Shown: piece after piece, positions 3,567 to 6,500 of the stretch | Position numbering within the stretch: the first letter of the stretch is position 1 | Layout of the letters: every line of letters starts with the position of its first letter | Assembly: GCA_025642075.2 (NCBI GenBank) | Contig: JAODUO010001628.1 | Span: forward strand, 1-64,000 | Reading direction: 5' to 3' | DNA length: 64,000 bases | DNA from: Ridgeia piscesae | Lineage: Eukaryota; Annelida; Polychaeta; Sabellida; Siboglinidae | Translations under genes and position numbers: made by a program | The notes under the pieces: generated by a model | The model's input: the letters and a program-made list of their open reading frames with translations, nothing else | Databases searched by the model: none | What the model was told of the DNA's origin: nothing

Positions 3567-6500
3567 CTGCAAACACATCCACTGTGGGCTACAAACATAT
3601 CTCACCCAGCTTCCTCTCAGTCCTGCAAACACATCCACTGCATGCTACAAACACATCTCACCCAACTTCCTCTCAGTCCTGCAAACACATCCACTACATG
3701 CTACAAACACATCTCACCCAACTTCCTCTCAGTCCTACAAACACATCCACTGCATGCTACAAACACATCTCACCCAACTTCCTCTCAGTCCTGCAAACAC
3801 ATCCACTGCATGCTACAAACACATCTCACCCAACTTCCTCTCAGTCCTACAAACACATCCACTACATGCTACAAACACATCTCACCCAACTTCCTCTCAG
3901 TCCTACAAACACATCCACTGCATGCTACAAACACATCTCACCCAGCTTCCTCTCAGTCCTGCAAACACATCCACTACATGCTACAAACACATCTCACCCA
4001 ACTTCCTCTCAGTCCTGCAAACACATCCACTGCATGCTACAAACATATCTCACCCAACTTCCTCTCAGTCCTACAAACACATCCACTGCATGCTACAAAC
4101 ACATCTCACCCAACTTCCTCTCAGTCCTACAAACACATCCACTGCGTGTTACAAACACATCTCACCCAACTTCCTCTCAGTCCTACAAACACATCCACTG
4201 TATGCTACAAACACATCTCACCCAGCTTCTCTCCAACCAACGCATCTACTCCAAGCTACAAACACATGTCACCCAGCTTACTCTCTGTCCTACAAACACA
4301 TTTACTCTGTGCTACAAACACATCTCACCCAGCTTACTCTCTGTCCTACAAACTTATTTACTCTGTGCTACAAACACATCTCACCCAGCTTACTCTCTGT
4401 CCTACAAACACATTTATTCTGTGCTACAAACACATCTCATCCAGCTTACTCTCTGTCCTACAAACACATTTATTCTGTCCTACAAACACATCAATTGCAT
4501 CCTACTCCTGTGTTGGCACTGTACCTCTGTATGACTTTACTGTGTTGACATTGTACCTCTGTATGACTTTACTGTGTTGACATTGTACCTCTGTATGACT
4601 TTACTGTGTTGACACTGTACCTCTGTATGACTTTACTGTGTTGACACTGTACCTCTGTATGAAATTTTACTGTGTTGACATTGGGACCTCTGTATGACTT
4701 TACTGTGTTGACATTGTACCTCTGTATGACTTTACTGTGTTGACACTGTACCTCTGTATGACTTTACTGTGTTGACATTGTACCTCTGTATGACTTTACT
4801 GTGTTGACATTGTACCTCTGTATGACTTTACTGTGTTGACATTGTACCTCTGTATGACTTTACTGTGTTGACATTGTACCTCTGTATGACTTTACTGTGT
4901 TGACACTGTACCTATGTATGACTTTACTGTGTTGACATTGTACCTCTGTATGACTTTACTGTGTTGACATTGTACCTCTGTATGACTTTACTGTGTTGAC
5001 ACTGTACCTCTGTATGACTTTACTGTGTTGACATTGTACCTCTGTATGACTTTACTGTGTTGACATTGTACCTCTGTATGACTTTACTGTGTTGACATTG
5101 TACCTCTGTATGACTTTACTGTGTTGACACTGTACCTCTGTATGACTTTACTGTGTTGACACTGTACCTCTGTATGACTTTACTGTGTTGGCACTGTACC
5201 TCTGTATGACTTTACTGTGTTGACACTGTACCTCTGTATGACTTTACTGTGTTGACATTGTACCTCTGTATGACTTTACTGTGTTGACATTGTACCTCTG
5301 TATGACTTTACTGTGTTGACATTGTACCTCTGTATGACTTTACTGTGTTGACATTGTACCTCTGTATGACTTTACTGTGTTGACATTTTACCTCTGTATG
5401 ACTTTACTGTGTTGACATTTTACCTATGTATGACTTTACTGTGTTGACATTGTACCTCTGTATGACTTTACTGTGTTGACATTGTACCTCTGTATGACTT
5501 TACTGTGTTGACATTGTACCTCTGTATGACTTTACTGTGTTGACATTGTACCTCTGTATGACTTTACTGTGTTGGACACTGTACCTCTGTATGACTTTAC
5601 TGTGTTGACACTTACCTCTGTATGACTTTACTGTGTTGACATTGTACCTCTGTATGACTTTACTGTGTTGACATTGTACCTCTGTATGACTTTACTGTGT
5701 TGACATTGTACCTCTGTATGACTTTACTGTGTTGACATTTTACCTCTGTATGACTTTACTGTGTTGACATTTTACCTCTGTATGACTTTACTGTGTTGAC
5801 ACTTACCTCTGTATGACTTTACTGTGTTGACATTGTACCTCTGTATGACTTTACTGTGTTGACACTGTACCTCTGTATGACTTTACTGTGTTGACATTGT
5901 ACCTCTGTATGACTTTACTGTGTTGACATTGTACCTCTGTATGACTTTACTGTGTTGACATTGTACCTCTGTATGACTTTACTGTGTTGACACTGTACCT
6001 CTGTATGACTTTACTGTGTTGACATTGTCGTACGGATGACTCAATATGTTGTTTGCCATCCAGCAGTTGCGCCATCAACTCTCGGTTCTCATGTTTCAGT
6101 TCTGTCACAAAGACATGGAACAGTTAAGACTAATCCTCATGTTTCAGGTCTGTCAAGTGGACAAATGACAGTTAAAGTTAGTTCTGATGTTTCAATCACG
6201 TCACAAGGACAATTGACAGTAAAAGTTAGTTCTGATGTTTCAATCATGTCACAAGGACAAGTGACAGTTAAAGTTAGTTCTGATGTTTCAATCATGTCAC
6301 AAGGACAAGTGACAGTTAAAGTTAGTTCTGATGTTTCAATCATGTCACAAGGACAAGTGACAGTTAAAGTTAGTTCTGATGTTTCAATCATGTCACAAGG
6401 ACAAGTGACAGTTAAAGTTAGTTCTGATGTTTCAATCATGTCACAAGGACAAGTGACAGTTAAAGTTAGTTCTGATGTTTCAATCATGTCACAAGGACAA

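Follow-up and report, generated by a model that had tools for sequence, protein, structure and literature searches.

Splice-junction arrays at both edges of CENP-H intron 7 in the tubeworm Ridgeia piscesae

Tandem repeats that span an exon-intron boundary have been named mirages, and their original description is reportedly a 2002 paper on Adh in amphioxus. The available portions of two amphioxus studies describe mirages at 5' or 3' edges in Adh3, the globin genes BflGb6 and BflGb9, troponin C, and PGBD5; many copies carry AG or GT, yet mRNA is reported to be normal, and boundary copies escape homogenization (PMC3087553, PMC3902484). The available part of a study of human segmental-duplication genes describes short internal tandem repeats that lie at exon-intron boundaries and are in some cases linked to novel introns (PMC2812944). 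Here we analyze a 64,000-nucleotide stretch of the genome of the annelid Ridgeia piscesae (contig JAODUO010001628.1, positions 1 to 64,000, referred to as the window), in which intron 7 of the CENP-H gene is made almost wholly of copies of the two splice junctions that bound it. A first-pass annotation, made from the letters alone, had noticed this arrangement and named no known intron built wholly from its two junctions; contrary to the implied absence of precedent, boundary-spanning arrays are known from the amphioxus and human cases.

The CENP-H gene was modeled on the minus strand as eight exons and seven GT-AG introns, with a single open frame of 229 residues (Table 1; position 3360 is the limit of the modeled stretch for exon 8). 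The model protein matched the Pfam CENP-H family (E = 7e-18). Its 140-residue C-terminal part matched solved CENP-H chains (E = 4e-8) in an alignment that spans the exon 7-8 join and has gaps solely further upstream. An exon-7 query had one match in the whole assembly (628 Mb, 4875 contigs). One additional 29-base candidate exon at 19220-19192 was rejected because it broke the frame.

Intron 7 consists of two junction arrays set back to back, as first proposed: 2394 of its 2432 bases lie within arrays, and both arrays run into the flanking exons, overlapping 25 bp of exon 8 and 30 bp of exon 7. The repeat unit on the exon-8 side contains the 3' splice site together with some 25 exon-8 bases; one period away, 24 of 24 exon bases recur. 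On the exon-7 side, the unit contains the 5' splice site and the end of exon 7, with 29 of 30 exon bases recurring. Excluding the arrays and 100-bp margins, we detected no ungapped match of at least 75% to either junction elsewhere in the window. The two arrays meet near position 4500 with almost no unique sequence between them, the 38 intervening bases themselves holding partial copies. Alignment of units to exon edges therefore bore out the first-pass description, including the periods of 56 and 32 bp; its account of the units needed amendment, since the 56-bp unit is a doublet of 34 + 22 bp that as a rule carries two AG sites, and the 32-bp unit holds a second GT. Tandem Repeats Finder (TRF) reported 16.7 copies for the acceptor array, of which 12 are in strict register counting the real copy: walking away from exon 8, eleven further copies keep register and are followed by variant copies. 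For the donor array, TRF reported 47.5 copies, with 47 in register counting the real copy (46 additional copies when walked from exon 7). Intron 7 has the anatomy of a mirage, in that each unit spans an exon-intron boundary and each head-to-tail array includes the real edge. The exon-bound acceptor copy diverges from the more uniform inner copies, a likeness to the globin mirages in the available part of the amphioxus report (PMC3087553).

With so many splice-site copies available, the coding frame was used to ask which copies could be joined. Pairing 47 donor copies with 16 acceptor copies gave 752 combinations, and the reading frame stays open as far as the CENP-H stop codon in only one of them, the outermost pair. 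In the three inner acceptors for which the product was printed, a TAG was reached inside the first extra unit, and in the four inner donors treated in the same way, the frame was shifted and a stop was met. The splice dinucleotides themselves are largely intact. Across the eleven junction arrays found in this window and in chaperonin genes elsewhere in the genome (see below), AG or GT was retained in 380 of 417 internal copies with at least 62% identity. The array at the acceptor of CENP-H intron 6 is the exception, with AG in 1 of 19 internal copies; in the intron-7 acceptor array AG is present in 30 of 31, a total that is only reached if the two AG sites of a unit are both counted. Given this retention, most inner copies in the other ten arrays are not silent for want of an AG or GT.

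Five of the eleven junctions could be compared with proteins, and all five are consistent with splicing at the outermost copy; the remaining six, including the three of CENP-H, rest on frame and within-genome homology. For the CCT-epsilon gene on contig C525, protein P0005 (540 residues) matched the exons through residue 499, joining them at the outermost acceptor. P0005 was predicted from a 2.2-kb contig, which is too short to contain these introns, and its source tag "lgn," shared with P0138, is one that we take to denote an assembly of public read sets, so that P0005 is probably a transcript. Both array acceptors of the CCT-eta gene on contig C17 agree with P0137, a predicted protein of Lamellibrachia satsuma, and with P0138. 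In the neighboring gene of the window (gene 2), eight orthologues, that of L. satsuma among them, agree with the acceptor at 60739, and the join at 49510 is likewise matched by the L. satsuma orthologue. L. satsuma, also a siboglinid annelid, supplied the nearest named proteins: one CCT-epsilon stretch (19% of the query) is 100% identical to it, whereas the full protein differs at several residues, and P0005 is closer to the genome's CCT-epsilon than is the full L. satsuma protein. Taken with the frame test, this agreement makes the outermost copies the most likely splice sites of CENP-H intron 7, in line with the first-pass reading.

We put the probability at about 0.85 that each of the two edges of intron 7, an ordinary GT-AG intron, was tandemly duplicated and then amplified, yielding an extreme, double-sided mirage. 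At each edge, a local tandem duplication would have straddled the exon-intron border, and each duplicate would then have been enlarged into a minisatellite by unequal exchange or slippage until the two arrays together replaced or swamped the prior intron sequence. The spliceosome would pair the donor nearest the body of exon 7 with the acceptor nearest the body of exon 8. Because splicing would use the copies adjoining the real exons, the extra copies would stay intronic and could accumulate neutrally.

Tandem duplication of AG/GT segments has also been invoked for intron gain, reportedly by Rogers in 1989, Zhuo et al. in 2007, and Gao and Lynch in 2009; that process likewise duplicates splice signals, but it creates a new intron. 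A gain of the Rogers type at this locus would have begun with one ancestral exon in which both sides of an AG/GA point were tandemly duplicated, the resulting GT...AG insert being spliced from the outset. The near absence of noncopy sequence in intron 7 (38 of 2432 bp) would suit such an origin, as would a GTAC in exon 7 that lies 35 bases upstream of the donor GTAC. Novel introns at boundary repeats are also reported in human duplicated genes, in the available part of that study (PMC2812944). However, when the match between repeat and exon was extended into the exons, the result for intron 7 was not significant: the score was reached by all null draws for the acceptor and by 17.5% for the donor. 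The extension beat at least 96% of null draws in 6 of 11 arrays, but in these the extended stretch takes in exon sequence whose repetition had already been established. Moreover, other introns with junction arrays retain sequence outside them: of the four in the window, two have 417 and 1245 bp of it, and three chaperonin introns have roughly 440 to 1280 bp. We therefore consider birth of the intron by duplication quite improbable.

To determine how often such arrays occur beyond this contig, we sampled the chaperonin genes, whose detection does not depend on annotation. Searching the genome with the Pfam Cpn60_TCP1 family gave 50 matches on eleven contigs, and the genes on nine contigs were analyzed (48 of the 50 matches, 143 kb). 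Exon edges were resolved for 22 of 39 neighboring exon-hit pairs, with 16 skipped because of missing exons and 1 lacking a solution; one resolved pair (C17, 2506 to 3651) was wrong, as an intervening exon had been missed. Four of the nine genes (C17, C525, C564, and C661) carried at least one junction array. Six edges were straddled in all: five acceptors (two on C17 and one each on C525, C564, and C661) and one donor, on C564. At the edges examined in the other five genes (C74, C288, C306, C505, and C580), no junction array was detected, a 27-bp array on C580 having been excluded because it ends in the polypyrimidine tract. The acceptor array on C564 (L046, bases ~2030-2190) has a 54-bp unit that takes in some 40 exon bases and is present in about three copies, perhaps an early stage of a junction array. 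On C525 (L044/L045), a partial, diverged second copy of a CCT-epsilon exon was also observed (gene-strand positions 5378-5482 versus 5848-6039), 91% identical over 35 residues; it lies upstream of the exon matching P0005, at a distance of ~470 bp. A COX1-like sequence at C3158:12438-13633 contained several in-frame TGA codons, as expected for the mitochondrial code or for a nuclear copy.

We compared these counts with a null model in which seeds fall randomly within what is now unique intron sequence, using 102 edges (two per neighboring exon pair found). Ten arrays straddled the counted edges, against 1.6 expected; the one remaining array, on C564, falls beyond the span that was counted. Because the window was chosen for its arrays, the chaperonin genes alone provide the fairer test, and here 5 arrays were observed against 0.67 expected (p = 0.0006, or p = 0.012 if half of the edges were missed). 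These expected figures would shift where pairs among the 102 edges have unfound exons between them, or if ancestral introns were shorter or longer than today's unique sequence. Nine of the arrays lie at acceptors and two at donors (two-sided p = 0.065); inside the counted edges, the split is eight and two (p = 0.11). By a rough splice-site weight matrix, the nine array acceptors were weaker than 25 others (medians, 2.0 versus 3.0; p = 0.056). One double-sided intron was observed where 0.3 was expected among 51, which is unremarkable and about what independent one-sided events would give.

The same counts bear on whether junction arrays are favored by selection, with extra acceptors aiding the recruitment of splicing factors where the 3' splice site is weak; small duplications would then spread and later grow. 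The preponderance and the lower strength of array acceptors both lean in this direction, as does the excess over random seeding, but p stays above 0.05 for the asymmetry and for the difference in strength alike, and the matrix was not trained on this genome; we judge this explanation unlikely. A broader proposal is that arrays in the tubeworm lineage arise preferentially at splice junctions, most of all at acceptors, either by a process linked to splicing or transcription or because redundant acceptors are selected for. Introns would then grow by copying of their edges, and CENP-H intron 7 would represent the end state, with no other sequence left. We advance this tentatively, as a possibility that the present counts leave on the doubtful side.

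Several points weigh against an origin by ordinary duplication and amplification with splicing at the outermost copies. The secondary AG and GT sites within the units were left out of the 752 pairs. In rough scoring with a weight matrix, the real intron-7 donor was no better than most inner donors (-0.1), and two inner donors, with the sequence GAG|GTAAGT, came much closer to the donor consensus (7.6); a splice choice based purely on position is accordingly an assumption. For CENP-H, use of the outermost copies is deduced from frame and homology, and a CENP-H protein search returned no relative at E = 0.001. Among the comparison proteins, P0137 and the gene-2 orthologues are predictions from other species and not RNA of this one. 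Finally, random seeding under-predicts the number of junction arrays, so that ordinary accident may be an incomplete explanation. Assembly error is another source of doubt, as arrays of this length are difficult to assemble and repeats could have been wrongly extended or joined into chimeras. However, the copies differ from one another, the units fit the exon edges closely, and the pattern recurs at eleven separate junctions, which makes an artefact very improbable.

Three further junction arrays in the window had been overlooked in the first-pass annotation: the 48-bp array at the exon-7 acceptor, in which 13 of 14 exon bases are repeated, and two acceptor arrays of gene 2 (Table 1). Gene 2 lies on the plus strand at about 42139-60971 and is conserved, with relatives from Owenia to elephant shark; its protein is 74% identical to the L. 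satsuma orthologue. No Pfam match above the cut-off was obtained and a search of solved structures gave no name, and the gene encodes an uncharacterized, probably membrane-bound protein. Just upstream of a gene-2 exon, an 18-bp repeat of 3-4 copies (42072-42137) is open in the frame of that exon and may be coding. A gene-2 donor at 55066 was rejected in favor of 55051 because eight orthologues do not have the five residues between; the table of introns and arrays compiled for the window is still based on 55066. From its 21st base to its end, the gene-2 intron at 55052-60738 consists of 37-bp copies, interrupted by an insert at ~58558-59161 and, near 60344-60364, by a brief irregular segment. 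The insert, perhaps the end of a retroelement, starts with about four copies of the 10-base unit TTTAACAAGA and splits the array. Copies near the start of this intron read Val-Tyr-Leu, whereas the exon now reads Val-Tyr-Val; Val-Tyr-Leu is also found in three of eight gene-2 orthologues, L. satsuma included. At this one site, the data fit preservation in the array of an older version of the exon edge.

Table 1. Positions of the CENP-H features and junction arrays in the window
Feature	Position	Strand	Basis
CENP-H exons 1-6	33948-33910, 25616-25520, 24369-24312, 23587-23516, 13950-13887, 7625-7574	minus	open-frame model
CENP-H exon 7	5999..6101	minus	open-frame model
CENP-H exon 8, last coding exon including stop	3360..3566	minus	in-frame model and CENP-H homology
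CENP-H intron 7, GT-AG, phase 2, 2432 bp	3567..5998	minus	gene model, frame test
56-bp acceptor array (3' splice site and first 24-25 bases of exon 8)	3542..4469	minus	TRF, alignment to exon edge
38 bp between the arrays, with partial copies; sole intron-7 sequence outside arrays	4470..4507	minus	array mapping
32-bp donor array (5' splice site and last ~30 bases of exon 7)	4508..6028	minus	TRF, alignment to exon edge
48-bp acceptor array of CENP-H intron 6 (exon-7 acceptor and exon-7 start)	6085..7156	minus	TRF, edge alignment
19-bp (and longer-period) gene-2 acceptor array, overlapping the exon that starts at 49510	48246..49519	plus	TRF; L. satsuma orthologue edge
37-bp gene-2 acceptor array, exon at 60739	55072..60762	plus	TRF, edge alignment, orthologues

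Arrays account for about 38.0 of the 47.7 kb of intron sequence in the two genes of the window (introns spanning 3567-60738). Among 15 large intronic arrays picked from the window table (~8 copies or more), 5 extend into an exon and 10 touch none. A 21-bp array at 7954-13724 comprises about 280 copies. Coding fragments resembling retroelements were seen by eye at ~38600-41500 and 47100-48230, between and inside the two genes.

The tubeworm arrays differ from described boundary repeats in scale and in host. The globin and PGBD5 mirages of amphioxus have 2 to 7 copies at one edge per intron in the available parts of those reports (PMC3087553, PMC3902484), whereas the arrays described here can exceed 100 copies (one has 136 internal copies), fill one intron from both edges, and occur in an annelid instead of a lancelet. 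Human boundary repeats, in the available part of the report, have units of about 30 bp, with ~4 copies on average for variable repeats, and a repeat is often retained in an alternative transcript (PMC2812944); the tubeworm arrays are long, and their extra copies are intronic as far as tested. Ordinary intronic minisatellites resemble these arrays in unit length, homogeneity, and copy variants but need not contain exon sequence. An earthworm metallothionein intron has repeats, which the available part of that report does not state to span a splice site (PMC12783039), and the available parts of two vestimentiferan genome papers do not mention boundary-spanning repeats (PMC9921365, PMC10192322). 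In the open-licence literature, we found no double-sided boundary array and no boundary array of any kind in annelids. Thus, the annelid host, the length of the arrays, the filling of an intron from both ends, and the excess over random seeding are apparently new.

Together, these data show that a structure named in lancelets is also present in an annelid, where several genes of a single genome carry it. CENP-H intron 7 constitutes a natural experiment in splice choice, in which 47 donors face at least 16 acceptors, nearly all with GT or AG intact, and some donors are stronger than the one apparently used. Junction arrays also represent a route by which introns could lengthen and are a possible cause of failed gene models in such genomes.
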